Below, piece after piece: positions 1 through 46,889 of a DNA stretch of 46,889 bases. The stretch's first letter is position 1. Each line of letters opens with the position of its first letter. Origin of the DNA: a virus; IMG/VR virus record IMGVR_UViG_3300047287_000229, positions 1-46,889 of that record; one strand, 5' to 3'. The translations under genes and the position numbers were made by a program. A model generated the notes under the pieces. The model saw only the letters and a program-made list of their open reading frames with translations. It did no database searches and was not told where the DNA came from.

Positions 1-16
1 TATACGATCTAGCCAT
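1..16 (-). CDS. Start of basic head-region protein, continuing from the window end
   Basis: This is the first five codons and one base of the gene whose remainder lies at 46504-46889 minus. Read on the minus strand, ATG at 16-14 is followed by codons for A-R-S-Y. The last base here plus the last two of the window form the next codon (S), and the frame stays open to the stop at 46504. The encoded MARSY start is identical, with different synonymous codons, to the paralogue at 52-876. I infer that the window is a circular genome and that this is one intact 133-residue gene split by linearisation. Confidence 0.85.
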
Positions 17-51
17 GGCAGAAGGAATGCGGCCTGTGCCTTAGCTTTCCG

Positions 52-876
52 TTAGCTCTTCTTCCGAGGCTTCCGCTTTTTCTTCGGTGCTCCCTTGGTG
101 TTGCGTGGTCCAGGCTTGAGGTTGTTCTTGGCCTTGCCCTTGCCCTTGGGTAGCACCGGCGCCAGCTGCCGGTCATAGATTGCGGCAGCCTTAGCAGCAG
201 GCTTGCTGCCACGGGCTGCAGCAGCGGCGGCCCGAGCAGCTCGGCGCTGGATCACTTCGCGTCCGGCCCGAAACGTCTTGCTGCTTTCCTGACGCAGTAT
301 CAGCCGAGCAACATCAGCCTTGACGCCTTTGCCAGTGGCGTCAGCAATATCGCGAGCAGTACCACGAGCAATGCGGGACAAGATGTCACCGGCACGCTTT
401 TTGACTTCACGAATCTTAGGCTGCTGCTGCTTGATGGAATCAACCGCCTTATTCATGCGACGCATGCCGGCATCCATCTGACCCATAGGGGTGCTAGGCG
501 TATAGGTACGAATGGCGTTCATCTTTGCCGCAATCGGCCCACGCCGTGGTCCAGTCGTGCGGCGAATGCTGTTGCCGGCTTTTGGTCGCGCCAGTCCACC
601 GGTAGCCCTGATCCCGCTCCGAGGCTTGGTCTTGCTGCGCTTGGTGCCGGTGCCGGTGGCCTTGTAGAAGTCCCGCGCACGTTGAGCCGTGGCAAGGGAG
701 CGTGCGGCACGGGTGCCACCGCCAGCTTTGACGGCAGCGCGTGCTGTGGCCTCCCGTGTCTTGGCTCTGCCGCGTGCGGTGGTGGTCTTGGGCAGGCTGC
801 CGGGGGCCTTGCGGGTGCCGCCACCTCCACCGCCAGCAAAGCGGCCGCTGGCGTCCCGCTTGTATGACCGTGCCAT
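52..876 (-). CDS. Very basic Lys/Arg/Ala-rich head-module protein
   Basis: 274 residues. It opens MARSYKRDASGRFAGG followed by a glycine run, and is rich in K, R and A throughout with a strongly basic C-terminus. The motif QRARDFYKATGTGTKRS near residue 70 is shared with the gene that crosses the window ends (QRAREFYRLSGTGTKRS), so the two are paralogues. It begins two bases after the portal stop and is therefore probably co-transcribed with it. The position between portal and scaffold, plus the histone-H1-like composition, suggest an internal head protein that binds packaged DNA. That role is inference; no family is recognised. Low-complexity sequence makes distant matches unreliable. Confidence 0.75.
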   Translation of the reverse strand: MARSYKRDASGRFAGGGGGGTRKAPGSLPKTTTARGRAKTREATARAAVKAGGGTRAARSLATAQRARDFYKATGTGTKRSKTKPRSGIRATGGLARPKAGNSIRRTTGPRRGPIAAKMNAIRTYTPSTPMGQMDAGMRRMNKAVDSIKQQQPKIREVKKRAGDILSRIARGTARDIADATGKGVKADVARLILRQESSKTFRAGREVIQRRAARAAAAAARGSKPAAKAAAIYDRQLAPVLPKGKGKAKNNLKPGPRNTKGAPKKKRKPRKKS

Positions 877-878
877 CC

Positions 879-2405
879 CTACTGCCCGACTGCAGGAGGT
901 TGCCCCGGTAGCTGCGCCATGCTTGCCGCCAGCTGATCCTGCTGCGCTTGCAGGCCGTCAGCTTGTGCCTGCATGGTCTGTTCCAGCTCGGCGTCAATGT
1001 CAAAGTCAGAGCCGAGCCATTCACCCTCAGCCAATCGGGTCAGCAGGGTTTCCTGGCTGATCTCGTTATTGAGCCGCAGCTGCAGCAGCTGTTGCACATC
1101 GGCGGGGTCGAGTCGGGCCGAAACGAAGTCGCGGTTGACGGCGCTGCTGCCGCCATCGGGTAGGCCTAGGTAGGCAGCGTGGAAGCTGAGGCATTGATCC
1201 ACTAGGTCTTGCAGGCCGATAGCGACGGCTTGCAGGGCGGCGTCACCCTGCGACCGGTCGATGGCCTTGGCCTCAGCGGCTTGGTTGGTGAGGTTCTGCC
1301 CCAGCACGGCTGCCAGGCCCAGCTCTGCGATCTGGTCTTTGATCCGGTCGAGCTGCTTGAACCTTGCCTCGTAGCTGGTGCCGGTGGGCTCGGCAAACTC
1401 TGCCCGTGCATCGGAGGGAAATGCCGTGGCGCTGTTGGGCCCTGCCTGCAGTTCTTCCACCTCGGCCGGCACGCCGAACAAGTTGTATCTCGGCACGGCT
1501 GCCACGTGCAGCAGGTTCCCCTGATCGCTCTCGCACTGGTAGGCCTGCAGGTTGAGCCAAGCCACCTCCTCCAGCGGCGGGGTGCTCTCCAGCGTGGCGG
1601 AGCGGTTGCTGTAGGCCACCGCAAAGGGGATGTCTTCCATGGTCGTGGTGCCCTCTGAGATGAGCTCCCAGTCGCGGGACTTGCTGGCCTGCAGGCGGTA
1701 GACGCGGAACCGGCCAGGCTCCAGCACCCGCACCTGCTCCACCATTTCCTCGCCCCACTCGCCATAGGGCACCGTGAGCGTCTCGCGCAGGCGCAGCATC
1801 GTTAGCTTCTGCGTGCCGCCCACCACGTCCGTGCGCCAGCCGAGGATGTCCCGTGGGGCATAGGGCAGCCAGTACGGGCGGGAGAAGTCCGTGACTGGGC
1901 TGGCGTCACCCTCATCACCGCGCGGGTAGTCCACCAGCACGCCGACGTGCCCGTAACGGATGCACAGGCGCGCCAGGTGCTGCAGGAACACATCCAGCCC
2001 GCTGCCGGTGAGATCCACGTCATAGAGCTGCTCGACCATCGGATCGGGCACGTTGTCGAGGCGAATCGGCTTGCGCGTGAGCATGCCGGCCAGCATCTGC
2101 TCCAGGCGTAGGTAGTACGGGGGGCAGAAGCTCTTGGCTAGACGGATGGCATAGGAGTCATCGGCCTCCATCGGCTCCTGCGGCAAATACCGACGGCCGG
2201 CCTGCTGCATGCCGAGGGTGCCAAGGCACAGCTGTTCAATCAATCGCCAGCGTGGTTCTTGCTGGCTCCAACTGATGCCAGGCTCGTAAACCTTGAGGGT
2301 GCGGAAGTTAGCGCCACCACCAGCGCCGCCCATCGTCACCGGCTGAAAGCGTGCGTAACGGGTATCACCGTTGCCGGCAGTGATCAGGGTTTCGCCAGGC
2401 TGCAT
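879..2405 (-). CDS. Portal protein, DUF4055 type
   Basis: 508 residues, typical for a portal. The portal is a dodecameric ring at the capsid vertex through which DNA is packaged and ejected. The arrangement of an N-terminal region with a GHVGVLVDYP motif, a central SNRSATLESTPPLEEVAWLNLQ-like block, and a C-terminal Gln/Ala-rich helical tail fits the DUF4055 portal family. It lies downstream of the terminase genes on the same strand. The ATG at 2405 lies 20 nt after the AACCT of the palindrome at 2426-2442, a spacing repeated before other genes here. The gene directly downstream encodes the basic 274-residue protein. Confidence 0.85.
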   Translation of the reverse strand: MQPGETLITAGNGDTRYARFQPVTMGGAGGGANFRTLKVYEPGISWSQQEPRWRLIEQLCLGTLGMQQAGRRYLPQEPMEADDSYAIRLAKSFCPPYYLRLEQMLAGMLTRKPIRLDNVPDPMVEQLYDVDLTGSGLDVFLQHLARLCIRYGHVGVLVDYPRGDEGDASPVTDFSRPYWLPYAPRDILGWRTDVVGGTQKLTMLRLRETLTVPYGEWGEEMVEQVRVLEPGRFRVYRLQASKSRDWELISEGTTTMEDIPFAVAYSNRSATLESTPPLEEVAWLNLQAYQCESDQGNLLHVAAVPRYNLFGVPAEVEELQAGPNSATAFPSDARAEFAEPTGTSYEARFKQLDRIKDQIAELGLAAVLGQNLTNQAAEAKAIDRSQGDAALQAVAIGLQDLVDQCLSFHAAYLGLPDGGSSAVNRDFVSARLDPADVQQLLQLRLNNEISQETLLTRLAEGEWLGSDFDIDAELEQTMQAQADGLQAQQDQLAASMAQLPGQPPAVGQ

Positions 2406-2425
2406 GGCACGTCTACTTGTGCCCT

Positions 2426-2442
2426 AGGTTTCCGGGCAACCT
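2426..2442. promoter_or_regulatory. Palindromic element B in a divergent gap
   Basis: AGGTTTCCGGGCAACCT lies between the portal gene (minus) and the small gene at 2463 (plus). On each strand the AACCT half-site ends exactly 20 nt before the respective start codon. On the minus strand the half-site reads AACCTAGGGCACAAG, 15 nt identical to the one before the gene starting at 33815. The function is unknown: it could be an operator, a promoter part or a 5'-leader element. Confidence 0.6.
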
Positions 2443-2462
2443 ATGACCGCAGCGCTGTAGGG

Positions 2463-2642
2463 ATGGCCAAGAAGAAGACCAAGGCAGAAGCCAAGGTGTC
2501 GAAGGTGATGCGTGAGTTCAAGGTCGGCACCCTCAACAGCGGCACCAAGAAAGGCCCCAAGGTGAAGAGCCGTAAGCAGGCGATCGCCATCGCGCTGAGC
2601 GAGGCCAGCAAGGTCGGCAAAAAGCGCAAGGGCAAGCGCTAG
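2463..2642 (+). CDS. Small basic DUF6496-like protein
   Basis: 59 residues. The core, VMREFKVGTLNSGTKKG followed by PKVKSRKQAIAIALSEA and a Lys-rich end, matches the pattern of the DUF6496 family of small bacterial and phage proteins of unknown role. It is one of a few plus-strand genes inside the minus-strand structural block. ATG 2463 is preferred over an upstream in-frame start because it follows the palindrome by 20 nt and because the conserved part begins there. Its TAG stop overlaps the stop of the convergent HNH gene. Confidence 0.7.
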   Translation: MAKKKTKAEAKVSKVMREFKVGTLNSGTKKGPKVKSRKQAIAIALSEASKVGKKRKGKR

Positions 2643-3322
2643 GCCACCTTCGCTCCCTTGCGGATGTTGTCCACAGCCCACAGCGGCTGCAGGTTGGTGT
2701 AGTGGAAGCAGGCTCGCTGCTGCTCAGGATCGGTCAGGTCGAAGCTCGCGCAGGGGCGGATATGGTCAATGTGCCACACCTTGCCAACGTGGCCCCAGTT
2801 ATCCCACGACATTCCTGGCAAGAAGCGACCTTCCAAATAGCGCTTGAGATATTCCACCGAGCAACCAAGAAGCTCTTGGGTCTTTGCCGACTTGTTACGG
2901 CCCTTGACGGCATCGCACAGTCGATTTCGCAATGCGCCGAGGATTCGCACTTCAAGCACCTCACGCCTCTGACGTGAGCGCAGCCTTTCTTTCTCCCGGG
3001 CTTTTTCCGTGCTGCGCCTCCGCTTGGCGGCTGCATTGATGGCCTTATTGTGCTTAATGTAACGCTGTCGCGCATGCTCTCTGGCTGCTTCCCTGTTTTC
3101 CCTATATAACCGGGACATTCGCTCTCGCGATTGGTCTCTTGCACATTCACTGCATTTGTAGCAGTCAATAAATCGCAAAGCATAATGCCCTCGCTTGCAC
3201 GGCTTTCCAGCGTAGAAGTGACGCAAGCCTTGCCGCATCGCCTCCTTGCGGCTGATGAAGGGTCCGTAGACAATCGCTTCAACCCGTGGCGCAAACAGGT
3301 TGAGCTGTGACACGATGCTCAT
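2639..3322 (-). CDS. HNH endonuclease
   Basis: 227 residues. The N-terminal part has CKRGH and CYKCSEC zinc-ligand pairs, followed by a long Arg/Lys-rich helix. The C-terminal part carries WHIDHIRPCASFDL and HYTNLQPLWAVDNIRKG, the usual His-Asp/Asn-His metal site of HNH nucleases that cut DNA. It lies between large terminase and portal. HNH proteins beside terminases assist cohesive-end packaging in several phages, but free-standing homing nucleases occupy the same place. The sequence is noticeably more AT-rich than its neighbours, which favours recent acquisition. Which role applies cannot be decided from sequence. Confidence 0.85.
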   Translation of the reverse strand: MSIVSQLNLFAPRVEAIVYGPFISRKEAMRQGLRHFYAGKPCKRGHYALRFIDCYKCSECARDQSRERMSRLYRENREAAREHARQRYIKHNKAINAAAKRRRSTEKAREKERLRSRQRREVLEVRILGALRNRLCDAVKGRNKSAKTQELLGCSVEYLKRYLEGRFLPGMSWDNWGHVGKVWHIDHIRPCASFDLTDPEQQRACFHYTNLQPLWAVDNIRKGAKVA

Positions 3323-3346
3323 GTCGCCTGGTAGTGCAGGTGGCCT

Positions 3347-3373
3347 GGAGCAGGGGCTGCAACCCGCTGCTCC
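3347..3373 (-). terminator. Hairpin after large terminase
   Basis: GGAGCAG and CTGCTCC form a perfect 7-bp stem, extended inside the loop by GGG/CCC. It lies in the 66-bp gap between the terminase stop at 3389 and the HNH start at 3322. There is no clear T-tract, so it may attenuate or process the transcript rather than fully terminate it. Confidence 0.45.
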
Positions 3374-3388
3374 ACCCCATTCTAGGGC

Positions 3389-4741
3389 CTAATACAGCCG
3401 AACGCCACGTACTGCGCGGCCAGTAATCGCCCTGCCCACCTCAAAAGTACGGTGACAAATATATCCTAATGCGTCATTCATATGATCGTAATTAGCCGCT
3501 TTATCCGGCTCGCCCTTCTCGTCGTAGCTCTGCAGCTCCAGACACTCAATGAGCCGCTTGCAGCGCGGGTCAATAAACAGCCGGCGCTCACCCTGGCCGT
3601 TCTCCAGCATGGCCTGCACGGCAGCCACCCGGTCACGCACCGGAGGGTTGGCCTTCGGCGCCTGGTTGCTGATGTCATAGCTCTGCAGGATGGCCACGTC
3701 GCTGCGGCTGCTGTTGGTGCTGCGGGCGGTGCCTGAGGCGTCGGGATAGCCAAGGATGCGGGCCTTGGGATAGCGGCGGCGGATCTCCTGGCCCAGCGCG
3801 TCGGTGTCGTGGGCGCCGGCCACCTCGTCGAACACGTGCAGCTCGCGGCCACGACGGACGGAAAGGCATGCGTTGGTGTTGCCCACGTTGAAGTCGCAAC
3901 CCATCAGGATGGTCTCGCCCTCCAGCTCATCCCAGTCACAGGGGATGACGTGATGCTCGCGGTTGAAGCGGTCGTAGACCTGGCCGGTGGTGAGGTTGAC
4001 GAACTCCCCTTCCAGGTAGGCGCGCAGCAGGGACGGGTCGTAGTTGGCCTGCAGGCGCTCGATGAAGTCCGGCGGCAGGTGCGGGTTATCGGCCGTGCGC
4101 ATGCGGATCAGCCGGCGATCTTGGCGCTGCTGCGCATCCTCTGAGCCGAAAGTCTGCCACATCCACCGAAAGCCCTCCGGCGTGCTGGCAGCGCCGAACT
4201 GGCGCACGTTGCCGGAGCGCAAGCGGCCGAGGATCTTCGGGAATGCCTTGTTGGCAATCGTGGGCGTCACCGTGTCGATCTCATCGGCCAGCACCCAGGC
4301 GAGGTTGAGGCCGATGATGCGGGTCCAGTTCTCAAAGGACCGGCACAGGATCTTGGTGTCACCGCCGGGCAGATGCAGCACGTACTCGGGCAGGGGCGAG
4401 GCACGGAAGCTGTAGGGGATGTCGTAGCCCTCCAAGAAGGCCTCAAAGTCGTTCTGCCAGATGTCGCGGATGAGCGGGCCGGTGGGCTCCATGACGCAGC
4501 CGAGGAAGCCCTGATTAGCCAGCGCGAGGCTGACGGCCTTGGCGCAGAGAGCGCGGGTTTTGCCGGCGCCATAGCCGGCTGAGACGCCGATGATCTCAGT
4601 GGTCTGGTCGTGGACGAAAGCGGCCTGGCCGGGGTGCAGGTCGGCGGTGATGCGGGCGAGGGTGTCGGTAGCGGCTTCGGCGGTAGGGGGCTCAAAGCGA
4701 GCCAGCAAAGGCGATGCCTGGAACCGATCCAGGATCGCCAT
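3389..4741 (-). CDS. terL: Terminase large subunit
   Basis: 450 residues. This is the motor ATPase and nuclease that cuts concatemers and pumps DNA into the prohead. Walker A is GVSAGYGAGKT (residues 52-62) and Walker B is VLADEID (150-156). The C-terminal RNase-H-like nuclease domain shows three acidic positions: D283 in GCDFNVG, D334 in YPDASG and D423 in DHMNDALGY. The length is normal. The start overlaps the stop of the small terminase gene (TGATG), as expected for translational coupling. Context and motifs together make this assignment firm. Confidence 0.95.
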   Translation of the reverse strand: MAILDRFQASPLLARFEPPTAEAATDTLARITADLHPGQAAFVHDQTTEIIGVSAGYGAGKTRALCAKAVSLALANQGFLGCVMEPTGPLIRDIWQNDFEAFLEGYDIPYSFRASPLPEYVLHLPGGDTKILCRSFENWTRIIGLNLAWVLADEIDTVTPTIANKAFPKILGRLRSGNVRQFGAASTPEGFRWMWQTFGSEDAQQRQDRRLIRMRTADNPHLPPDFIERLQANYDPSLLRAYLEGEFVNLTTGQVYDRFNREHHVIPCDWDELEGETILMGCDFNVGNTNACLSVRRGRELHVFDEVAGAHDTDALGQEIRRRYPKARILGYPDASGTARSTNSSRSDVAILQSYDISNQAPKANPPVRDRVAAVQAMLENGQGERRLFIDPRCKRLIECLELQSYDEKGEPDKAANYDHMNDALGYICHRTFEVGRAITGRAVRGVRLY

Positions 4742-5079
4742 CAGATCACCTGGATGAACTGAGCTTGGGTGCGGATGTACTGCAGGGCTGCCAGCCGGTT
4801 CCCAGTGGTTGCTCCATCGTCACCACCGATGAGCTCATCACGTGCCATCTGCTCCAGTGTTGCCATTTTCTGCGCGATCCATTCGGACTGATCAACGGCG
4901 CAGTTGGCTTTCAACTTCTGGCGAGCTTCCGCGATGTAGTTGTATGCCTGTGATTTTTCAACCCCCCACTTATTTCCGGCATATTCCAAAATGTCTGCTG
5001 TAGACCAACAGCCAACAAGCTTGTGGTAGACGTCGTGAACACGGAGAATCTTTTCGTGTTCGGTTGCCTTAGCTGCCAT
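4741..5079 (-). CDS. terS: Probable terminase small subunit
   Basis: 112 residues. It precedes and overlaps terL by one base. The helical N-terminus (residues about 10-50, including STADILEYAGNKWGVEKSQAYNYI) resembles a helix-turn-helix DNA-recognition segment, followed by a helical oligomerisation-like region. This is the layout of small terminases that recognise the packaging site. Sequence alone gives a weak family match, so the call rests mainly on position, size and the HTH-like segment. Confidence 0.7.
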   Translation of the reverse strand: MAAKATEHEKILRVHDVYHKLVGCWSTADILEYAGNKWGVEKSQAYNYIAEARQKLKANCAVDQSEWIAQKMATLEQMARDELIGGDDGATTGNRLAALQYIRTQAQFIQVI

Positions 5080-5114
5080 TGCTGAAGGGGCCAGTCACCC
5101 AGCCCCACGGAGGA

Positions 5115-5567
5115 TCAGAACGGCGCCAGCTCCCGCACAGGGGCGGGAACGGGCTCAAGAGCGGCCACAGGGGCCGGGATGGGCGCGGAGGGCGTGACCA
5201 CCACCGGAGCGGCCTCTACGGGCCGTGCAGCGGCCTTAGAGAGCTTGAGGGTGCCGGTAGCGGCATCGTGTGCGATGTCCACCCGGTCGCCGGCCTCCAG
5301 GCCCAGCAGGGCGGAGTAGCCGGCGGAGATGGGGATAACGCCGGTGCGGGAGACGGCGACGTTCCAGGCGAGGGGCTTGCCCTTCTTGGGCTTGCTGCTG
5401 GACACGGGAGCGAGGGTGAGGCCGTGAGCAGCGTTGAGGGCCTCAAAGAACTGGGTGAAGGCAGCTTTGCCGTCCTTGCGGGTGTAACCGCAGGCGATGG
5501 CGATGACATCACGGGGTTGCTGGCCAAGGTCACGGACTTTGGCGAGCAGATCAGCGCCGGTGAGCAT
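5115..5567 (-). CDS. cyAbrB-like transcriptional regulator
   Basis: 150 residues. The N-terminus MLTGADLLAKVRDLGQQ, with IACGYTRKDGKAAFTQFFEAL further on, and the C-terminal AbrB-like domain (about residues 65-112, including AVSRTGVIPISAGYSALLG and LEAGDRVDI) follow the plan of cyanobacterial AbrB (cyAbrB). In the host these proteins bind DNA broadly and affect nitrogen, carbon and cell-division genes. A Pro/Ala-rich tail of about 35 residues is added here. It lies between the terminase genes and the candidate origin, facing the packaging module. A phage copy could modulate host or phage transcription; that is inference. It is also the clearest sign that the host is a cyanobacterium. Confidence 0.8.
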   Translation of the reverse strand: MLTGADLLAKVRDLGQQPRDVIAIACGYTRKDGKAAFTQFFEALNAAHGLTLAPVSSSKPKKGKPLAWNVAVSRTGVIPISAGYSALLGLEAGDRVDIAHDAATGTLKLSKAAARPVEAAPVVVTPSAPIPAPVAALEPVPAPVRELAPF

Positions 5568-5921
5568 GCGGTGTGGCGTGGGGTGCTGTGAGCATAGCTT
5601 GCCGCATTTGCAGCGCTACGGCTGCGCAGTGACAGCGCCTGTCCCGCTTGTCCCGGTGTGTCCCGGTAGGCGGGACAGCCGAAACTCCGCGCTCTGACAG
5701 CGGTTTGCTCCTTTCTGTCCCGTTGTCCCATCTCCAAAGACAGATACACACACACAGACGTGCGCACACACGCGCACGCACGCACGCATGCGCATGTGAG
5801 GGGGTGTCTTTCCGCCAAAAGCGGGACAAGCGGGACAACCGGGACAAAACCAGTATTTGCAGGCGTTCTCAGCGTCCCGGTCAAACATGACCTGTCCCGC
5901 TAAAGCGGGACAAAAGCGGGT
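5568..5921. other. Candidate replication origin with iteron-like repeats
   Basis: This 354-bp gene-free region between the cyAbrB-like and primase genes holds 11 copies of GGGACA or its complement TGTCCC. Three TGTCCC begin at 5640, 5649 and 5659, and further copies at 5716 and 5724. Three GGGACA begin at 5823, 5832 and 5841. Others begin at 5672, 5893 and 5907. The phased triplets sit on the two flanks in opposite orientation. Between them lies an alternating purine-pyrimidine CA/CG tract (about 5745-5795) that could melt or form Z-DNA. Iterons beside a primase-helicase gene suggest an origin; no replication-initiator binding is proven. Confidence 0.55.
5894..5911 (-). terminator. Hairpin downstream of the primase gene
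   Basis: GTCCCGC and GCGGGAC form a perfect 7-bp stem with a 4-nt loop, 11 nt beyond the stop of the minus-strand primase gene. It also contributes two of the GGGACA-type repeats, so it may act as terminator, origin element or both. Confidence 0.5.
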
Positions 5922-8402
5922 TCAGCCCCGATCCAGCGGCAAGGACACGGCTCGACTGTTGCGTTCCATGCCACGAAATCGGACCTTGCCAGGCTTCTCT
6001 GCACCAGGCAGGCGGGACAGAACGGTGGGCCAGCTGTGAGCCCAGGAGGTGTCGTGCAAAATGCGCTGAAGGCCTAAGGCGTTGTTGGCGATCAGCAGGC
6101 GATCAGCCTGTACGCGTACGCCAATGCGGCCCAGGTGGGCCTCAGCAGAGCCGGTGCTGATCTCCATGCTGGTTGCCGTGCCGCGTGCGAGCTCAACCAG
6201 CTCCCAGACGGTGCGCATGTAGCCGTTGCCTCGGTCGCCTTCGACCCGTAGCTGGTGCTGGAGGATGTGCTGCAGGCAGCGTTCCTCATCCGGCAGCTCG
6301 GATGCCTCGCGGTACTGGCTCCAGTCGTTTGCGTCGATGAGCGCGAGCGCGTCGTCTTCGCTGGCGACATGGGCATTCATCAGCGACCAGGCGCCGGCCA
6401 GAAGGGTGCCGTACTGATCGCCATGGCGCTGACTGTCGAAGCGCAGGGCAGCAGCACGACGGAACACGGCGATGCTGTCCTTGATGGCCGGGATGAGCGC
6501 AACAGATCGCAGGGCCATCTGATGACCCAGTTGTGCGGTGACGATGCCGGTCAGGTCGCGGTCAAGGTCTGCCCAGTGGGCTTGCCGTTGCTCTTGCGGC
6601 AGAAATGACGGGTTACGCAAGGTGAGCTGAGCAAAGCGGGACGCATCGGCGCCTTGCTTAAGAGCGGTGCTGATGGAGCACAACAGGAACATTGAGCGAA
6701 TGACGAAACGCTGCGCGGCACCATCGGCGCCACCACGGCCGACAAAGCCGCGACCGGAGCTGCTGGCGACGCGGGCTAGGGCCAGGATGTCTTGAATCCG
6801 CTTACGGTCGGCAGCCTCGTTGGATTCGGCCTCATCCATGATCACCGGGAGGGCATCAGCGCGGAGTTCCTGGCGGATGCTGGCTTCAGATGTGCTGCCT
6901 TCTGGCCAGAGCGCAAGGCTGTCAAGCAAGGTGCCAAGGAAGCGGTTGAGGAGAGCGCTCTTGCCGCTGCCTGCACTTGCCGTCAGCCATATGTGCGGTC
7001 GCCATTCCAGGGCGCCGCAGATCGGTGCCAAGGCAGCCCAGCCGGCAATGAGCAGGCCGGAGGCCGGCACTTCCCAAAGGAACCGGGAAGCAATGTCCAA
7101 GATCTCGGCGCCCTGTTGATCTGTGAGTGGCTGCAGGTTGGTCGGCAGATCAATGGCCGCCAGGCGCTGATAGTTGAAGCGTGATGGTGGCGGGTTGGTG
7201 ATGACGTAGGCAGTGCCGTCCACCAAGAGACGATCGCCAAGGTGAAGGACAGCGCGGCCGTTATCCCACCAAGATCCACGGCCTCTGATGCGATCGGGGC
7301 TGTAGATGCCTACGGCTGCCTGCTGAGCGAATAGGGACGAGGCAGCAGCGGTCCAGTTGGCTCCTGTTTTGCTGGGGTGCAGAGTTTCCCAGTATTCGAC
7401 CGGAGCCAATGCAACCAGATGCGTTCCGGTGTGAGAGCCCCGGCCCAGCCGCAGTACCTGTCCGGTGTTGTTGGGCTGGTAGAAGTAACCGCCATCATCA
7501 AAGCCAAGGCATGTGAACGGCGCCGATGGCAGCGGGTCAGCTGGTGGTGTTGCTGGCGATGGCTCGGGCTGCTGGGGTGCGGCCGGGGGCTCGATTGCCT
7601 TGGCATTGGCGAGTGCCTTGGCGGCCATCGCTGGAGTCCATTTGTCGGCGATGGCATCAGCCAGATCCCATCCGGGTGGCTGTGTTGCCGGCACGGTGAC
7701 GACCCGCACGGTGCAGCCGAGGGCCAGGAGCCGGCTGGCGAGCTTGGCCATGGCCTGCCGGCCTACATCATCGGCATCAGGCCAGAGAACGCAGGCGCGG
7801 CCACGGAGCGGCTGCCAGTCGGCCTTGTCGATGGCCTTGCAGCCTGATGCCCAGGTGCAGACGGCATGTGCGGGAAACAGCTGAGCGGCAGCGTCGGCAG
7901 CCTTCTCACCCTCGGTGATGAGCACCTCGGCGCCGAGCTCGCGGCGTGCCCAGTAGAGAGGCCGTGGTTCTGGTTGTGCTTTCCATCGCCATGCGGTGCC
8001 GTCCCACCAGAGGGGGCGGATGCGCTTCTCGGGAAACCGACAGACGATGAAGGTGTCGGAATAGCGCCAGACGTGCTCTGCACCGGCGGTCGGCGGCGGT
8101 GGGACCGGTGCAGCGAGGCCTAGGTGCCGCTCAACTGCGCTGCAGGCATCCTGGAGGCTCCAGCCGCGCACGCGCATGAGCAGGTCGATGCCGCTGCCGG
8201 CCCCGCCTTGGTGGTTCTTGCCACCGCAGCGATTGCAGTAGAAACCGCCAGGCCCGTCGTCGTTGTCCCAGCGGTAGCGATCGGTGCCGCCGCATGCGGG
8301 GCAAGGCTGGTGCTTGTCGCTTAGCTGCTCGGCTGTAAGGCCGCCAAGTTCCATCAGCAGCTGAGGCCAGCGCCCCGCTGCGGCATCAAGGATGCTGGCC
8401 AT
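5922..8402 (-). CDS. Primase-helicase with zinc ribbon
   Basis: 826 residues. The N-terminal zinc ribbon has C34-P-A-C37 and C56-N-R-C59 around GGTDRYRW, the P4/T7-type primase motif. A TOPRIM-like core follows (LITEGEKAAD 161-170, WPDADD 207-212), then a Pro-rich linker (about 272-295) and a C-terminal ATPase domain with Walker A TASAGSGKS (474-482) and Walker B VIMDEAE (520-526). It probably synthesises primers and unwinds the fork at phage DNA. It lies next to the repeat-rich region at 5568-5921, directly downstream of the small RHH gene on the same strand. Confidence 0.85.
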   Translation of the reverse strand: MASILDAAAGRWPQLLMELGGLTAEQLSDKHQPCPACGGTDRYRWDNDDGPGGFYCNRCGGKNHQGGAGSGIDLLMRVRGWSLQDACSAVERHLGLAAPVPPPPTAGAEHVWRYSDTFIVCRFPEKRIRPLWWDGTAWRWKAQPEPRPLYWARRELGAEVLITEGEKAADAAAQLFPAHAVCTWASGCKAIDKADWQPLRGRACVLWPDADDVGRQAMAKLASRLLALGCTVRVVTVPATQPPGWDLADAIADKWTPAMAAKALANAKAIEPPAAPQQPEPSPATPPADPLPSAPFTCLGFDDGGYFYQPNNTGQVLRLGRGSHTGTHLVALAPVEYWETLHPSKTGANWTAAASSLFAQQAAVGIYSPDRIRGRGSWWDNGRAVLHLGDRLLVDGTAYVITNPPPSRFNYQRLAAIDLPTNLQPLTDQQGAEILDIASRFLWEVPASGLLIAGWAALAPICGALEWRPHIWLTASAGSGKSALLNRFLGTLLDSLALWPEGSTSEASIRQELRADALPVIMDEAESNEAADRKRIQDILALARVASSSGRGFVGRGGADGAAQRFVIRSMFLLCSISTALKQGADASRFAQLTLRNPSFLPQEQRQAHWADLDRDLTGIVTAQLGHQMALRSVALIPAIKDSIAVFRRAAALRFDSQRHGDQYGTLLAGAWSLMNAHVASEDDALALIDANDWSQYREASELPDEERCLQHILQHQLRVEGDRGNGYMRTVWELVELARGTATSMEISTGSAEAHLGRIGVRVQADRLLIANNALGLQRILHDTSWAHSWPTVLSRLPGAEKPGKVRFRGMERNSRAVSLPLDRG

Positions 8403-8405
8403 GCG

Positions 8406-8591
8406 TCAGGCCGCTACCGCTTGGGCCTGCTTGCGCTCGAAGTCTTCAAGGACCAGGCGACGGATGTAGGCCGCGCGGCTGCAGGTTTGGCGTTCTGCCT
8501 GCCGGTCCACGTGCTGGGCGAGGTACTCGGGGAACACCATGGACATAGCCCGGTGGGTGCGGATGGGCGGTTCTGAGGCCTGAGAGGGCAT
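8406..8591 (-). CDS. Small ribbon-helix-helix DNA-binding protein
   Basis: 61 residues. The pattern AMSMVFPEYLAQHVDRQA, then SRAAYIRRLVLEDFERK, is that of CopG/Arc-type ribbon-helix-helix proteins: a short strand, two helices, and SRAAYIR at the start of helix B. These bind operators as dimers. Its stop lies just 3 bases before the primase start, so it likely forms one operon with the primase and may autoregulate it. The upstream gap carries a dyad element on the shared divergent promoter region. Confidence 0.6.
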   Translation of the reverse strand: MPSQASEPPIRTHRAMSMVFPEYLAQHVDRQAERQTCSRAAYIRRLVLEDFERKQAQAVAA

Positions 8592-8628
8592 GGCGTGGGC
8601 GCGTGAACCGTCAGAGCATAGGATCCAC

Positions 8629-8661
8629 AGCGCTGCGAAACCACAGCCACAGCGCTAAGAT
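8629..8661 (+). promoter_or_regulatory. Element A promoter/operator, copy 1
   Basis: AGCGCTG and CAGCGCT form a perfect 7-bp inverted repeat (8629-8656) around a core with CCACAGCC. A TAAGAT box at 8656-8661 begins 24 nt after GCTGCG (8632), the same geometry as copies at 13804 and 19316. It sits between the minus-strand RHH/primase operon and the plus-strand helicase operon, so it could control both. A GAGCGGA/TCCGCTC hairpin follows at 8664-8684. Confidence 0.55.
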
Positions 8662-8691
8662 TTGAGCGGAGCCCGCTTCCGCTCCCTGCTG

Positions 8692-8847
8692 ATGCCTGCC
8701 ACTGCCCGGACCAGGCGGTGGGATCGCCGGGCCTCTCAGCTGTCTGGGTCCCATCGAGGACACGCGTTGGCACCGGGGAGTCGTCCTGCATTGGGCGCGT
8801 GCAAGCGGGAGCAGCTCCACCCATCACAAGACCGCTACAGCGCATGA
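8692..8847 (+). CDS. Possible small leader ORF
   Basis: 51 codons, MPATARTRRWDRRASQLS to QDRYSA, Arg-rich, no recognised family. It follows the element A promoter and the hairpin at 8664-8684. Its stop codon overlaps the start of the helicase gene as ATGA, the coupling used throughout this genome, which is the main reason to list it. It could be a leader peptide or simply an open frame in a GC-rich 5' region. Confidence 0.35.
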   Translation: MPATARTRRWDRRASQLSGSHRGHALAPGSRPALGACKREQLHPSQDRYSA

Positions 8848-12103: not shown

Positions 12104-12133
12104 GCGGCAACCTGCGCAAAATGCAGCGATGCG

Positions 12134-12343: not shown

Positions 12344-12344
12344 A

Positions 12345-40971: not shown

Positions 40972-41442
40972 TCAGGAGTCAGTCTCGGCGGTCCAGGTGT
41001 AGGCGCCGTAGCCGTTGAGGGTGAAGCTCACCTTCGCCACGTTGCCGGCCTGAATGTCCTCCTGAAAGTTGGTCACGAAGGCGACGCCAGCGCACTTTTC
41101 AGGATTGCCGGTAGAAGTCATCTCAGGAGACTCCCGGTACCACTGCACGGTCACGCCATTGGTCGAATCAAGGCTGGCCTGCCGCAGGGTCTTGTAGCCC
41201 GCATCCCGCAGGTCAAGATTCATGCTCATCGGGATGGTGTAGCTCTGCTGCGTCGCCAGCGAAGACTTGAACCCGAAGGTGCTGCCGTAGTCCAGTACAT
41301 CCTGCGTATCGGTCTGGGCTTGGATGCCAGCGTTGGACAGGTTCAGCACCTCATCCATCCCAGTGCTGCTGCTCGGAGCAGAGCTGCTGGTGGTGCCAGC
41401 CTTGACGTAGAACTTGTAGCCAAGGGCGTTGAAGTAACCCAC
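40972..41442 (-). CDS. Tail tube (major tail) protein candidate
   Basis: 156 residues from GTG 41442, MGYFNALGYKFYVKAG onward. The part DVLDYGSTFGFKSSLATQQS, then SYTIPMSMNLDLRDAGYKTL and a beta-rich end (VAKVSFTLNGYGAYTWTA), fits major tail-tube proteins. A longer reading from 41511 would overlap the sigma-like gene and has no support. The start is 22 nt from AACCT at 41465. It lies on the tape-measure strand but is separated from that gene by the two opposite-strand genes. Confidence 0.65.
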   Translation of the reverse strand: MGYFNALGYKFYVKAGTTSSSAPSSSTGMDEVLNLSNAGIQAQTDTQDVLDYGSTFGFKSSLATQQSYTIPMSMNLDLRDAGYKTLRQASLDSTNGVTVQWYRESPEMTSTGNPEKCAGVAFVTNFQEDIQAGNVAKVSFTLNGYGAYTWTAETDS

Positions 41443-41462
41443 AACCTGAGGCGCGATGTGCC

Positions 41463-42011
41463 CTAGGTTTCCGAGGCCTCCAGCACCTCCCACGGTGTCG
41501 CCCGTGGGCACACGTGCAGGTCGAAGCCCATGGTGTCGTGGCTCATGCCACTGGTGGCCACCAGGCAGTCCCGCAGGTCATCGGCGCTGATGCTCAGCTC
41601 CTGGCACACCGCCTCAGCTGCCCAGCCCAGATCCATCAGCTTGCGTGCCCGCAGGCCCAGCTCTCGTGCGCGATGCGTGGCACCGATCGCCCAGTTGTGC
41701 GAGCGCAAGTAATGCAGCACCTCGCCCTGCGCGAACCGCCAGTAGATGGTGCTCAGCTTGCCCTTCTCCGGGTCCCAGGCACGGCACGCCTTCAGGAACG
41801 CGAAGTCGCAGCAGCTGTTGATGTCCTCCCGCGCCAGGCAGTGTCCGTACTGCTGGCTCAGCCGGTGGCTGAACTTGCGCACCAGGCCGATGTTCTGCGC
41901 ATACATCCGCCCGAACCGGCGCCGTTCCTCACGGCTCAGCGGGTCCGCAAGGTGCGGCTTGGGCTTCGCTGCCTCGTACTCACCAAAGAGAAGGAGTTGC
42001 AGCGCTGCCAT
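41463..42011 (-). CDS. Sigma-70-like RNA polymerase sigma factor
   Basis: 182 residues. Region 2 is recognisable: NIGLVRKFSHRLSQQYGH, then the REDINSCCDFAFLKACRAWD block and PEKGKLSTIYWRFAQGEVLHYLR (80-103), corresponding to the core-binding and -10-recognition helices. A weaker helical segment follows (GWAAEAVCQELSISADDLRDCL, about 129-150) in the place of region 3/4. It lies between connector and tail-tube genes, not in an early region. It could direct the host polymerase to phage promoters. The stop codon sits in an element B site. Confidence 0.75.
   Translation of the reverse strand: MAALQLLLFGEYEAAKPKPHLADPLSREERRRFGRMYAQNIGLVRKFSHRLSQQYGHCLAREDINSCCDFAFLKACRAWDPEKGKLSTIYWRFAQGEVLHYLRSHNWAIGATHRARELGLRARKLMDLGWAAEAVCQELSISADDLRDCLVATSGMSHDTMGFDLHVCPRATPWEVLEASET
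41465..41473 (-). promoter_or_regulatory. Element B half-site
   Basis: On the minus strand CGGAAACCTAGGGCACA lies 22 nt before the GTG of the tail-tube candidate, and the TAG in CCTAG is the stop of the sigma-like gene. Confidence 0.5.
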
Positions 42012-42020: not shown

Positions 42021-42578
42021 TCAGCACCGCAGAACGCGAACAGATCCCGTTGAGCCTACTGCCCGTGACAGGCAAAGGCAGCCGAGCACCTGCCGCAGAT
42101 GCGGCACCACGTTGAGGGCGTTCTGGCTCTGGGGCACACCGCCGTCCTTGAAGTCCACCGCGATCACGTCCACGCGGGCACTCTTGAGCGAGGCGTTAGG
42201 GATGCCGGGGATCAGCTCCGCATTGCCGGGGCCGCTGCCACCCAGCAGGGTCGCATCCCCGAGCAAGGCCTCGGCAAGGTCAAAGGTGGCCTGCTTGATC
42301 GGCTGCGGAATCACAGCGTTTGTGAATGACCAGTCGCCGCATTCGGCATCGGTGCGAGGCCAGGCCAGCGCTTGCGTCGTGGAGGCACGCTCACCGATCC
42401 AGCTCAGCTCGTCGAGATACCGGGTCGCCATGATCAGCGCCCGGCCTTTGTTGTCGGTGCTGGCAGAGCTCCAGGCCAGTGTGCCAAGGTAGACGTTGGC
42501 CAGATCATCCGCCTGCGCCACCGTCAGGTAGCTATTGGCGCTGCTGGACCCTGCGGTAGCGGTGACGGTAACAGTCAT
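42021..42578 (-). CDS. Head-tail connector, DnaT-like fold type
   Basis: 185 residues. ANSYLTVAQADDLANVYLG, ALIMATRYLDELSW, QALAWPRTD and IPQPIKQATFDLAEALL follow the phage DnaT-like/head-tail connector pattern (Y-x-T-x-x-E/Q-A, then A...ATR..D, ALAWPR). It probably joins the portal to the tail. The ATG overlaps the head-morphogenesis stop and is 5 nt from AACCT. The C-terminal end (LCLSRAVGSTGSVRVL) is unusual and may be non-conserved. Confidence 0.65.
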   Translation of the reverse strand: MTVTVTATAGSSSANSYLTVAQADDLANVYLGTLAWSSASTDNKGRALIMATRYLDELSWIGERASTTQALAWPRTDAECGDWSFTNAVIPQPIKQATFDLAEALLGDATLLGGSGPGNAELIPGIPNASLKSARVDVIAVDFKDGGVPQSQNALNVVPHLRQVLGCLCLSRAVGSTGSVRVLRC

Positions 42579-43612
42579 GCCTTAGGTTGCCGCCAGCGCT
42601 TGACGGCCTGGTCAAAGCTGACCTTGCCGTCAATCAAGTCCTGCCCCAGCTTCTTGCCAAAGATGGCCTGTGCCGTCTCGGGGTTGTCCTTGACCCACGT
42701 CTTAGCGGCCACCTTGAAGCTGAGCGCTTCCTCTGCACCGTCGCCATTGGCGGGACGCTTTGGTGGCACCTTCTCCCCAACCGGGTTGGTCATGTCCTGG
42801 TTGCGCCACTTCCACGGGACGAGATAGCAGCGGCACTGGGCGTGAGGCGAGACCTTCTGATAGTCCGGTGGGAACCGCTTGCCATCCAGCCGCAGGCACA
42901 CCGGACACGTGCGCGAGTCGAGCACCGCCGTCCACACCAGGCCTTCCTGCCCCAGCCATGCAGGGTCTGTCTCGAACTGGTAGATCAACTGCTGCGCTGC
43001 ACTGCCGGCTTCATGCGTGCCGGTGCGGATGATGGCTTCCACGTTGTTCTCTGTGATCCGCACCACCGCGTCCTGATAGGTGGCGAACGTCTCACCGCCC
43101 ACATCCGATAGGCCTAGCCGGATGAAGCGCTCCACTCGATCGGCTACTGCAGCAGGCAGCACCGTGGTCAACTGGGCCTCCAGTGTCTTGCCGGCCACGA
43201 CCTGCTGATTGACCAGCCGGGAGGCCTGCATGGGGGTCAGCTGCACCGCACCTTCGGCCGTCAGGCTGCCACCGGCGCGCTGCACCATCTGCCGTGCAAA
43301 GTCCAGTTGCTGCTGCACGAAAGGCGTCAAGGCTTCCTCTAGTGCTGCCAGCTGCGGAGCGCTGAAGCTCTCCTGCACGCTGCGCGACACCGCTGCTACC
43401 AGCCTGCGGATGTTTTCCTCCCGAGCAGGGCCCACCGCCAGCACGCCTGAGCCACCTACAACCCGCTCGATGCCGGCCAACGTCAGCCGCAGATTCCGCA
43501 GCGCCTGGCGCACGAGGCGGTCCTCGAGCTTGCGTTGCCGGAGGGCATTACGCAGGAACTCCTCAACCTGCAATGACAGGTCTGGCTCCACGTCAGCTGA
43601 TGTAGGCGACAA
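42575..43612 (-). CDS. MuF-like head morphogenesis protein
   Basis: 345 residues. The C-terminal half holds the MuF-type signature: WTAVLDSRTCPVCLRLDGK, then HAQCRCYLVPWKW (the CPxC...HxxCRC metal site). The N-terminal half is helical. Such proteins bind the portal or DNA inside the head and aid ejection. Usually the gene lies between portal and scaffold; here it follows the major capsid gene. It overlaps both neighbours (20 bases upstream, 4 downstream). Confidence 0.8.
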   Translation of the reverse strand: MSPTSADVEPDLSLQVEEFLRNALRQRKLEDRLVRQALRNLRLTLAGIERVVGGSGVLAVGPAREENIRRLVAAVSRSVQESFSAPQLAALEEALTPFVQQQLDFARQMVQRAGGSLTAEGAVQLTPMQASRLVNQQVVAGKTLEAQLTTVLPAAVADRVERFIRLGLSDVGGETFATYQDAVVRITENNVEAIIRTGTHEAGSAAQQLIYQFETDPAWLGQEGLVWTAVLDSRTCPVCLRLDGKRFPPDYQKVSPHAQCRCYLVPWKWRNQDMTNPVGEKVPPKRPANGDGAEEALSFKVAAKTWVKDNPETAQAIFGKKLGQDLIDGKVSFDQAVKRWRQPKA

Positions 43613-43829: not shown

Positions 43830-43984
43830 CCCTGCTGCATCACGATGTGGCGTAGCTTGCCGGTCCGCCTTGTTGGCACCGGCTCAGGCTCCTGCGCCTG
43901 CTCTGGCTGCTGCACATGCAAAGAGGCCACCTCCGTAGAGGCAGCCTCCCGCAGTGCTCGCCAGCGATTGGCGAACAGACCCAT
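43826..43984 (-). CDS. Small head-module protein
   Basis: 52 residues, MGLFANRWRALREAAST to IVMQQG. A basic N-terminal helix, then a Gln/Glu/Pro linker, then a basic end (RRTGKLRHIVM). ATGA overlaps on both sides put it firmly in the head operon. Function unknown. Confidence 0.6.
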   Translation of the reverse strand: MGLFANRWRALREAASTEVASLHVQQPEQAQEPEPVPTRRTGKLRHIVMQQG

Positions 43985-44382
43985 CAGCCGCCCTTGCGGT
44001 AGTAGGTGACTGCCGGCGTGCCGATTGCCGTGACCCGACCCACGTAGGTGGCCGAGGTGGCAGCGGCAATGGTGGCCGAAGCCGTGGCACCGGCGAGGGT
44101 GACGCCAGAACCGGCTGCCAGGGTCAGCGCACGGGTGGCGCTGGCCACGTTGACGATGGTCAGCTCAAAGCAGGATCCGACCTGAACACCATCACCCAGC
44201 AGCGACACGATGGCCGAGGCAGAGGCGGTAGTGATGGTCTTGTCAGTCGAGGCCGGCGTCATGGTGACGATGGCCTCAGCCGACTGGGCAGCCGTCAGAG
44301 TGGTGTCGGCGTTGCTGGCGTCCAGCACAGTGCGGACGCGGGTGGTGCGTCCGAAGTTGGGCGCATCAAGATGGAACTTCAT
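43984..44382 (-). CDS. Putative capsid decoration protein
   Basis: 132 residues. After a short basic start (MKFHLDAPNFGRTTRVRT) it is a Ser/Thr/Ala-rich beta protein (CFELTIVNVASATRALTLAAGSGVTLAG) ending AVTYYRKGG. It lies directly after the major capsid gene, the usual place for a decoration or stabilising protein. Its ATG is preceded by TGAGGTTGAGCC. Confidence 0.6.
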   Translation of the reverse strand: MKFHLDAPNFGRTTRVRTVLDASNADTTLTAAQSAEAIVTMTPASTDKTITTASASAIVSLLGDGVQVGSCFELTIVNVASATRALTLAAGSGVTLAGATASATIAAATSATYVGRVTAIGTPAVTYYRKGG

Positions 44383-44391: not shown

Positions 44392-45468
44392 TCAGACGTA
44401 GTAGGGGCAGGTGCAGGTGACGCGGGCGACGCCAATGTTCTTCTTGTCGAAGACCTTGGACCAGTTGCCGGCCGTCGCGAGATCCGCTGCAGTCGGGTTG
44501 GTGCTGCCGCCCCAGCTGGCGCCGAGGGGGTGGTAGCACATGTCCCACTGCACTTTCAGCACATCTTCACCACCGGAGGTGAGGATGTCGCGGTCGGACT
44601 CGGTACGCACGGGAGCCTGGAAGGCTTGACCGAGAGCGCCGGTCTTGAACACGTACACGCCGTACTTGTAGGAGCCAGCGCTGCCGGTACGGGGTGCAGC
44701 ATCGGAGACGATGACGGCTTTAGAGCCGAACATCGGGACCATGCCGCTGGAGCCAAAGGCACCGGAGAAGTCACCACCGATGGCGTTGCTGGCAGTGATG
44801 CTGCCGGCCGCAATGGTGCTGGCGGTGATGCCAGGGAGCTCCTTGGCGTTGACGTAGTTCACCATCTCCCGGACGCGCAGGTAGGCGTACAGGTCGGGGT
44901 GAATGACGATGCTGCCGAAGGTGTCGGCGTCCTCGCCCAGGATGGCGTCAGCCAAGACCAGATGACGGGGCGAAAGGTCGGTTTCACCCGAGCCGGTCGC
45001 ATCCACGCACATGGTCTCGAACGCAGCACCAGAGTTGCTGGAGCCGAGAGCACCGAACACACCGGACAGGACCGCCAGGAGGTCGGTCTGCTGTGCATTC
45101 AGCACGTAGTCGGTGACGCGGCGACCGATGGCGGCCATCGGGTCGTTCTCAGCACCTACTGCCAGCTTGGCCAGCTCGGAGCTGCCCCAGACGTTGGCGC
45201 GGTGCATGATCACACCCACCTGCTCGGCGGAGGTGAGCTTGTTGACCGACAGCGGCACACCCTCGGCCGGCACCTGAATGGAGCCGGAGAGGTTCGGTGC
45301 CCAGTTGGGGATCTTGAACTTGTCACCCTTGGTGACGTTCTGGGCAATCACCGGATTGGCGGTGACAATGCCAGTGGCCAAGAATTTGGAGCGGAGAGTC
45401 GACTGCTCGTCGATGTAAGACGAGAACGGGTCGTAGATCTTGGTATCCGCCCGGTAAAGGAAAGACAT
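44392..45468 (-). CDS. Major capsid protein
   Basis: 358 residues. The order and features fit a phage coat protein: N-terminal arm (MSFLYRADTKIYDPFSSYID), a central SSELAKLAVGAENDPMAAIGRR helix, LRVREMVNYVNA, and a C-terminal HPLGASWGGSTNP region that is shared by coat proteins of this kind. It follows the scaffold gene. An AAGAGG ribosome-binding site precedes the ATG, and AACCT lies 14 nt upstream. This is the main shell protein. Confidence 0.85.
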   Translation of the reverse strand: MSFLYRADTKIYDPFSSYIDEQSTLRSKFLATGIVTANPVIAQNVTKGDKFKIPNWAPNLSGSIQVPAEGVPLSVNKLTSAEQVGVIMHRANVWGSSELAKLAVGAENDPMAAIGRRVTDYVLNAQQTDLLAVLSGVFGALGSSNSGAAFETMCVDATGSGETDLSPRHLVLADAILGEDADTFGSIVIHPDLYAYLRVREMVNYVNAKELPGITASTIAAGSITASNAIGGDFSGAFGSSGMVPMFGSKAVIVSDAAPRTGSAGSYKYGVYVFKTGALGQAFQAPVRTESDRDILTSGGEDVLKVQWDMCYHPLGASWGGSTNPTAADLATAGNWSKVFDKKNIGVARVTCTCPYYV

Positions 45469-45551: not shown

Positions 45552-46247
45552 TTAGCGCACTGCTGCTTTGAGCTTTTGGTAGAGCTCTGGATCGGTGCGG
45601 AACAGACGGGCTTGTTCGGTGAGGTTGAATGATTCCGGCGCGAAGGGGTTGGTCACGCCTGCTGGAATGTCACCACCAGCGGAGCGGCCAACGGGAGCGC
45701 CGGAACCGGAGGGCTTGGGAGCCTTGAGTCGGTACTGGGGCAATGCCTGCCGCGCCCAGTCGAGGATGGGCGTGCGCTGGTAGCCATCAATCACCACGAC
45801 GGTGCCATCGGGCTCGCGGTCAATCTGCTCAGGCTTGAGCTTGAGCTTCACCACCTCGTCGGGGTCATGCACGGCATCGGCCAAGGCGGCGACAGCAGGG
45901 CCGATGATCCGCAGTTCCTTGACTTCCGCCTCCAGGGTGTCAATGCGGGCTTGCAGGGTGGCTTCACGGTCGCGGAACTGGGCTTCCAGCTGCTGGCGCG
46001 CCTGCTGGTAGTTGCCTTCGGCCTCAAGCTTCTGCTGTTCGGTCTGCTGCTTGAAGCTCAGCAGCTCGCGCACGTCGGTGCCTTCGGGCAGTTCCGCCAG
46101 GGTGCGCTCTGCCTTGGCAAGGCGTTTCTTCTCGGTGAGCAGCTCGGCGTTCTTGCGCCGTAGCGCTTCAATCTCGGCCGTCAGCGCCGACGGATCAGGG
46201 GTGGTGGGGGTGAGTGCCTCATCCACCGGAGTGAGGTCTTCGGACAT
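45552..46247 (-). CDS. Capsid scaffold protein
   Basis: 231 residues. A long coiled coil (about residues 20-115, ALTAEIEALRRKNAELLTEKK, then QQLEAQFRDREATLQARIDTLEAEVKEL), followed by a flexible Pro/Gly/Ala part and a short C-terminal helix (LFRTDPELYQKLKAAVR). Coiled-coil plus flexible end directly before the capsid gene is the standard scaffold layout. It guides shell assembly and leaves the mature head. A protease domain was not seen. Confidence 0.8.
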   Translation of the reverse strand: MSEDLTPVDEALTPTTPDPSALTAEIEALRRKNAELLTEKKRLAKAERTLAELPEGTDVRELLSFKQQTEQQKLEAEGNYQQARQQLEAQFRDREATLQARIDTLEAEVKELRIIGPAVAALADAVHDPDEVVKLKLKPEQIDREPDGTVVVIDGYQRTPILDWARQALPQYRLKAPKPSGSGAPVGRSAGGDIPAGVTNPFAPESFNLTEQARLFRTDPELYQKLKAAVR

Positions 46248-46273
46248 GGAGCCACAGGCTCAGGGTGCTCAGG

Positions 46274-46290
46274 AGGTTGCCGGGTAAGCT
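46274..46290. promoter_or_regulatory. Degenerate palindromic element B
   Basis: AGGTTGCCGGGTAAGCT lies between the scaffold gene (minus, 26 nt away) and the acidic gene (plus, ATG 46312 at 21 nt, or ATG 46291 at 0). It is the least conserved of the four palindromes but has the same divergent position. Confidence 0.45.
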
Positions 46291-46311
46291 ATGGCTCCCC
46301 ACCCACGTGCC

Positions 46312-46503
46312 ATGTCCGCTGAAGCCGTCTACGACGCCATCCGCGCCACCATTGCCGAGCAGACCGAACAGGACGATGAGCTGTCGATGTTTGAGCTGAT
46401 TGGTGTGGTGGAACTGATCAAGGCAGAGCTCACCGCCGCCGCAATGGATAGCGACGACGATGAGGAAGAGGAGGAAGAGGAGGAGGGGGAAGGCGAGGGC
46501 TGA
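46312..46503 (+). CDS. Small protein with acidic C-terminal tail
   Basis: 63 residues from ATG 46312 (or 70 from 46291), MSAEAVYDAIRATIAEQ, a helical body and a run of Asp/Glu (MDSDDDEEEEE, then GEGEG). It is on the plus strand, convergent with the basic gene at 46504; their stop codons abut. An acidic tail next to two very basic proteins suggests charge-based binding, perhaps a chaperone for the basic head proteins. That is inference. Confidence 0.6.
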   Translation: MSAEAVYDAIRATIAEQTEQDDELSMFELIGVVELIKAELTAAAMDSDDDEEEEEEEEGEGEG

Positions 46504-46889
46504 TCAGGCTTTGCGCTTGCGGGGCTTGCTAGCGCCTCGCGATTTTTCCATCCGCTTCACCTTGGCGGCAGCAGCTTTCACGGTTGCGTCGGTCCTGCCG
46601 CCTCGGTACATCTTCAGCTCCCGAACAGCCGAGGTGGCGGCCTTGTAGGCCTGCTTGGCCTTGCTGACGGGAGCTTTGCTCATCTTGGCGGGTTTGGCTG
46701 CAGTCTTTGCAGGCTTGCTACCACCGCTGGCCTTGGTTGTGCTGCGCTTGGTGCCGGTGCCACTGAGACGGTAGAACTCGCGGGCCCTCTGGGCCACCAG
46801 CATTGATTTCGCTTCTCTGCGGCCCACCTGGCCGGCTTTGGTTGCAGCCTTGACGGCCTTAGTGGCCTTGCGCTCATTGGCCTGAGCAC
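46504..46889 (-). CDS. Basic head-region protein, continuing at base 1
   Basis: 128 in-frame codons plus two bases in this window, and five codons plus one base at 16-1, give 133 residues: MARSYS, AQANERKATKAVKAATKAG, then QRAREFYRLSGTGTKRS and a Lys/Ala-rich end (KSRGASKPRKRKA). It is a paralogue of the 274-residue protein at 52-876, sharing N-terminus and the TGTGTKRS-type motif; 22 bases of DNA are identical (634-655 and 46741-46762). Likely DNA-binding head component. The frame is uninterrupted across the joined ends. Confidence 0.8.
   Translation of the reverse strand, partial: AQANERKATKAVKAATKAGQVGRREAKSMLVAQRAREFYRLSGTGTKRSTTKASGGSKPAKTAAKPAKMSKAPVSKAKQAYKAATSAVRELKMYRGGRTDATVKAAAAKVKRMEKSRGASKPRKRKA

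Follow-up and report, generated by a model that had tools for sequence, protein, structure and literature searches.

The DNA analyzed here, hereafter the window, is the whole of IMG/VR virus record IMGVR_UViG_3300047287_000229, a single metagenomic contig of 46,889 bases, both ends of which fall inside one gene of a family that we call MARSY after the first residues of its proteins. Read along the minus strand, the window starts with the terminase large subunit gene (3389–4741; phrog_2, E 1.1e-34), the portal gene (879–2405; phrog_145, E 3.3e-107), and a first MARSY gene (52–876), and it ends with the head scaffolding gene (45552–46247; phrog_206, E 3.1e-26) followed by the major head protein gene (44392–45468; phrog_247, E 2.5e-57), these assignments coming from a scan of 40 window open reading frames (ORFs) against PHROGs. 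The first MARSY gene encodes 274 residues with an isoelectric point (pI) of 12, carries an intact start tag, begins with MARSYKRDASGRFAGGGG, and matches neither PHROGs nor Pfam at E ≤ 0.001. A second MARSY gene stands in tandem with it between portal and scaffold, and it is this gene that the contig cuts: positions 1–16 (minus strand) hold its 5′ end, namely the codons of M-A-R-S-Y and the first base of codon 6, whereas its body and stop lie at 46504–46889 (minus strand).

Our computation reproduced what the sequence-only reading had seen at this place: the minus-strand frame 46887–46504 (127 codons) crosses base 1 without a change of phase and reaches an ATG at 16–14, so that a direct join of the ends gives a product of 133 residues starting MARSYSAQANERK (MARSYS...). 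The same reading had deemed a chance match to the first five residues of the paralogue very unlikely, rightly so, as 15 random bases would spell MARSY with a probability of 288/64^5, or ~3e-7 (arithmetic, equal base frequencies), and as the two genes spell these residues with different synonymous codons, which makes the match one of protein homology. Its proposal that the joined product resembles the paralogue along the N-terminal half holds for MARSY itself and for the segment from AQANERK to GTGTKRS (48% over query 8–76), but the likeness is interrupted: after MARSY, the paralogue has KRDASGRFAGGGGGGTRKAPGSLPKTTTARGR before homology resumes, where the joined product has a single hybrid codon (A|GT, Ser).

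Related phages place the two ends of the window next to each other in the genome. Among 12 related contigs found by a search with the major head protein, all ten that reach both genes have the portal gene just upstream of the scaffold gene on the same strand, with zero to two genes between them (counted as same-strand ORFs of at least 60 residues that do not merely overlap a longer ORF), and the other two, L024 and L029, start within the head gene. The intervening space holds no gene in L021, L022, L025, and L026, one ORF of 68 residues in L019, one gene in L018, L023, L027 (where it looks unrelated), and L028, and two genes in L020. Strand and order are likewise kept in G012C45 (the same DNA as L031), a contig of a metagenome-assembled genome (MAG) in which one inverted homologue of window 5115–5567 lies between the two genes, and in the cultured phages S-H1, KBS-S-2A, and P-HS2, in which 2.4–3.8 kb of other genes do.

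The order of genes over the whole window points the same way. Considering the genes matched among 52 chosen window ORFs, a circular map fits 43/43 of them in G001 (IMG/VR 3300043446_001906), 37/37 in G002 (IMG/VR 3300043446_002076), 37/37 in G005, and 28/30 in G012C45, whereas a linear map with the window ends kept apart fits 41, 23, 19, and 27, respectively, and the best of 300 gene-order shuffles fits 14–16. Three of these relatives carry end repeats, of 126 bases (offset by 14) in G002, 70 in G005, and exactly 141 in G012C45 (1–141 and 44124–44264), and they open at different places, G002 at about window 23.1 kb, G005 between 26.8 and 29.8 kb, and G012C45 between terminase and portal, as expected of circular or permuted molecules. 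Being circularly rather than linearly collinear with relatives that open at different places, the phage maps as a circle; this map comes from assembly, which cannot tell physical circularity or permutation of the virion DNA. The 141-base repeat of G012C45 ends inside a MARSY gene start, and could reflect either closure or a genuine two-copy repeat.

If the ends are adjacent, they nevertheless do not appear to touch. The closest relative, G001, whose portal and head proteins are respectively 97% and 99% identical to those of the window, has an intact MARSY gene of 170 codons, the product of which starts MARSYKRDSHGRFSGSGGGGGSRGGGKGSGKSSGPKTTTARGRAQANERK. Window positions 16–1 match the start of this gene at 15/16 bases, with the same codons GCT AGA TCG; from base 46889 inward, 59/60 nucleotides match it as well, and the protein identity after the linker is 95%. 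Exactly 111 nucleotides separate the two matches in G001, encoding KRDSHGRFSGSGG...TTTARGR, and the alignment thus sets the first and last bases of the window on either side of a glycine linker. Moreover, the start at base 16 aside, the motif RDxxGRF follows 12/12 distinct MAR[STR]Y starts (counted over 14 whole contigs and seven further loci, with GTG starts excluded and with two rows that repeat the same DNA, G012C45 and L043, counted once), and a GTG-start copy at 2748 in L042, outside this count, carries it too. The directly joined product lacks RDxxGRF, tag and linker being exactly what such a join would take away.

On this basis, the window ends probably flank an assembly gap of ~0.1 kb, and we infer that the strain in the window has the same stretch as G001. 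MARSY stands at base 16 because base 16 is the true start of that gene, and the frame is kept across the join because 111 is divisible by three, a 1-in-3 coincidence; the in-frame join, offered by the sequence-only reading as a sign of the exact junction, therefore loses its force. As for the larger claim, that the ends join into a complete circular genome, what survives is the adjacency of the ends and the circular map, both obtained through relatives, whereas the record is not closed and G001 holds 111 nucleotides more. For a contig to count as closed, passages of the CheckV description ask for either a terminal repeat, direct or inverted, of 20 bases or more, or host DNA flanking it on each side (PMC8116208). 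Exact direct or inverted repeats of 8–399 bases were sought at the window ends and none was found, so that terminal repeats were discarded as proof of closure; there is no host DNA at the ends either, since both fall inside one phage gene, and by a CheckV-type definition the record thus remains unclosed. Overall, it is very probable that the contig holds all but ~0.1 kb of the genome and that its ends face each other inside one MARSY gene; the genome would then likely be complete except for that stretch, and an exactly closed circle appears unlikely.

How the contig might have come to break there can be outlined. Assembly would have stopped on both sides of a G-rich stretch that codes for the glycine linker (111 nucleotides in G001), most likely because reads were lacking or because the population varies at the linker. 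The authors of COBRA state, in passages of their paper, that when repeats cause a break, the end sequences left behind are in most cases of maximum k (PMC10914622); the window ends, which were compared only with each other, share no such sequence, and this favors missing reads over a plain repeat. A plain repeat between the two MARSY genes was rejected as the cause, their longest shared exact stretch being 22 nucleotides and lying away from the ends. GC content or G-richness by itself was rejected too, the composition not being extreme. We also looked at whether contig ends cluster near MARSY starts: 3/28 ends of 14 whole contigs fall within 200 bases of one, against 1.3% of positions, but this count was made post hoc, a single contig contributes two of the three ends through its repeat, the window contributes the third, and we made no use of the count.

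Several observations weigh against a small gap at the linker. The G001 stretch has a GC content of 0.694 (40% G), and 12.6% of sampled window 111-mers are as GC-rich; the linker of the paralogue at 52–876 is GC-richer still (0.75), and yet it was assembled. The gap is deduced from relatives, G001 being the closest, and not from reads of this strain, and G001 is itself incomplete, with no end repeat. It also lacks the first MARSY gene, so the content of the region is not conserved. A search for a contig of the same strain spanning the ends retrieved only G001 with an exact right-end 21-mer and nothing with a left-end 21-mer. Finally, four ORFs with a MARSY core in L023 and G005 start with MAKKGG, MARKGG, MARRKGG, and MARKRS, without the tag, which shows that a copy can do without it; in these ORFs too, however, the core is preceded by a long lead. 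L023 (1984–3165, minus strand) and G005 (24874–25371, minus strand) are also where ORFs with the core (TTARGRA...GTGTKR) are found inverted between terminase and portal, with a direct copy after the portal as well.

Other arrangements of the ends fare less well than a small gap. The missing DNA could be larger, running from the remainder of one MARSY gene across at least one further gene into the start of another: the family does occur in tandem copies in the relatives G003, G012C45, L021, L042, and L044, and 16 bases at the left end are too few to prove that a single copy supplies both ends. We hold this to be unlikely, however, for the start codons GCT AGA TCG and the body both match one intact G001 gene, and the window, at 46.9 kb, already exceeds in length the three relatives that carry end repeats (44.3–45.8 kb). 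A circle closed exactly, in which the strain has a real in-frame linker deletion and the contig was opened there, would account for a join that is in frame and leaves an open gene of 133 codons, but it seems very improbable: since a closed circle can be opened at any position, opening exactly at the one deletion would be a coincidence of about 1 in 46,889 (arithmetic), the ends do not overlap, and the product would be without the tag seen after 12/12 other distinct starts. One gap, by comparison, explains both ends at once, when a real deletion would need to coincide with the place where the contig opens.

A contig from a linear phage may stop at a genuine terminus, and the lack of an end repeat would suit a linear genome of which the window ends are the physical virion ends, left by a cos or pac cut. 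Such an origin is scarcely credible here, given that the ends fall within a gene that lies between portal and scaffold, a place through which 10/10 relatives that reach it run unbroken, and that the three relatives with end repeats open elsewhere. Coming back to the small gap within one MARSY gene, the circular map would most likely arise from circularization after injection and from concatemers packaged by a headful-type mechanism, as reported for the freshwater cyanosiphovirus S-LBS1. For that phage, headful packaging was inferred by the authors from reads, according to passages of its description (PMC6157547), and we would extend it to the window on this precedent and on the circular map.

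Beyond the ends, the window holds the gene set of a tailed phage. Further along the minus strand lie genes for a head morphogenesis protein (42575–43612; phrog_241, E 6.8e-24), a head-tail adaptor (42021–42578; phrog_477, E 1.1e-32), a tail protein of the major tail protein type (40972–41511; phrog_38654, E 1.1e-14; phrog_1407, E 2.4e-9), a tail tape measure protein (37602–40097; phrog_991, E 1.2e-44), a peptidase C39-like endolysin (25611–26312; phrog_10051, E 3e-58; PF13529, 41.4 bits for a cut-off of 24), a tyrosine-type integrase (23561–24589; phrog_1, E 1.3e-12; PF00589, 19.9 bits, under the curated cut-off of 27.1), and a DNA primase (5922–8402; phrog_35358, E 3.1e-131), and on the plus strand a DNA helicase (10238–12103; phrog_16, E 8.6e-104); a gene for a single-strand binding protein is also present. 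That each module occurs once, as the sequence-only reading put it, is true of the terminase large subunit, portal, major head protein, tape measure, integrase, and endolysin, but not of the three helicase-type ORFs, of the two MARSY genes, or of the scaffold family, a second match to which (43984–44382; phrog_673, confined to the final part of the profile) comes immediately after the head gene.

Other genes were seen in passing. An ORF at 41463–42011, among the head-tail adaptor and tail genes, matches phage sigma-factor families (E 8e-9), which may be a false friend. A Mu Gam-like end-protection gene lies at 19525–20079, a Sak-like annealing gene at 13683–14582, and a dCTP deaminase gene at 25102–25614, the latter overlapping an ORF on the other strand (24810–25211). 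The helicase and methyltransferase ORFs at 15348–17689 have no match in G001, G002, G005, or G012C45, and the Dda-like helicase ORF at 8718–10454 has, among the same four, only a match of 29 residues in G001. Between terminase and portal, the window carries an endonuclease VII-like gene (2639–3322), whereas the two genes abut in G002 and G003 with no gene between them; G004 (L006/L017) is without most of this stretch as well, and its terminase match is split near the 3′ end (window 3479/3475) by ~0.96 kb with no window match (around 7423–8385), perhaps an intron or a homing gene. The window contains no tRNA genes and no Rfam families at gathering score.

With regard to known phages, homologous terminase, portal, scaffold, and major head protein genes in that order are found in 3/3 records examined, those of Synechococcus phage S-H1 (MK105819), cyanophage KBS-S-2A (HQ634187), and Prochlorococcus phage P-HS2. 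Identities to S-H1 and KBS-S-2A are respectively 75% and 70% for the terminase, 53% and 55% for the portal, 56% for the scaffold in both, and 42% and 40% for the head protein; these two genomes are, however, shorter (39–41 kb vs. 46.9 kb) and have ~2.4–2.5 kb of other genes, including a minor head homologue, between portal and scaffold. The Prochlorococcus phages P-HS2, MED4-184, and MED4-117 (38–39 kb) are more distant, with 66% identity in the terminase in all three and, for P-HS2, 46% in the portal, 46% in the scaffold, and 34% in the head protein, with ~3.8 kb between portal and scaffold. Megablast-level matches were absent from the phage collection for window 1–20000, the part queried. 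The window is probably a near-complete, circularly mapping genome of a KBS-S-2A/S-H1-like cyanophage with an integrase, nothing out of the ordinary, and its host is probably a cyanobacterium; for Synechococcus or Prochlorococcus in particular, the one hint is the 44 kb relative G012C45, which sits in a MAG titled uncultured cyanobacterium.

The integrase sets the window apart from KBS-S-2A, for which passages of the KBS2A description report none (PMC3751600). It is shared with G001, G002, and G012C45, while a search of seven related records found it in 0/7, six of them being fragments of 8.5–17.6 kb and the seventh G005; as G005 (45.8 kb, 70-base end repeat) gave no match, the gene is not universal in the group. 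S-LBS1 is likewise an integrase-bearing Synechococcus siphovirus, as passages of its description have it (PMC6157547), a likeness drawn from the literature alone; it was not among the matches listed for the head protein (best 20 of 193), the integrase (3 of 3), or the terminase (best 20 of 979). One genome scan with the head protein for integrated copies gave only the MAG contig G012C45, with its 141-base end repeat, and no att site was identified. We considered one where G002 opens, near window ~23.1 kb, and set it aside, for the 126-base repeat at the G002 ends looks like an assembly overlap and so provides no evidence of integration. The maximum k is 127 in metaSPAdes and 141 in MEGAHIT.

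If anything here is new, it would be the MARSY family, judging from the searches of PHROGs, Pfam, and the phage collection. Besides the two window genes (52–876; 46504–46889 plus 1–16), its members lie in G001 (34740–35252), G003 (8964–10331), L021 (4718–5434), L044 (4001–5717), and G012C45 (98–2321). Any one place, which may be the terminase–portal or the portal–scaffold interval, holds zero to two copies: G001 has one, and in G002 (portal 93% and head protein 96% identical to the window) the portal–scaffold interval is empty of them and MAR[STR]Y starts are absent altogether. Their products are rich in Ala, Lys, Arg, and Gly, have a pI of 11.7–12.0 in the four sequences computed, and join a common start tag to differing bodies. 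None of the five members scanned (0/5) matched a PHROG at E ≤ 1, and the phage collection, searched at E 0.01 with the low-complexity filter on, gave nothing for the product of 52–876; at E ≤ 1, Pfam gave only two sub-cutoff matches, both to this product, which we took as chance. We would venture, as a speculation more likely wrong than right, that the MARSY proteins form a modular phage family that has yet to be described, very basic and histone-like, the genes of which undergo duplication, loss, and shuffling near the portal gene, and that their shared tag (MAR[STR]Y-x-RDxxGRF and a Gly linker) would steer them into the head, there to bind or condense the packaged DNA.

The finding is an ordinary and useful one: an almost complete genome of an integrase-bearing relative of the cyanosiphoviruses is gained, and a trap comes to light, as the in-frame join of two contig ends can mimic a proof of closure even when a short piece is absent. 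If our speculation on MARSY were true, phage heads would have a portable loading tag.

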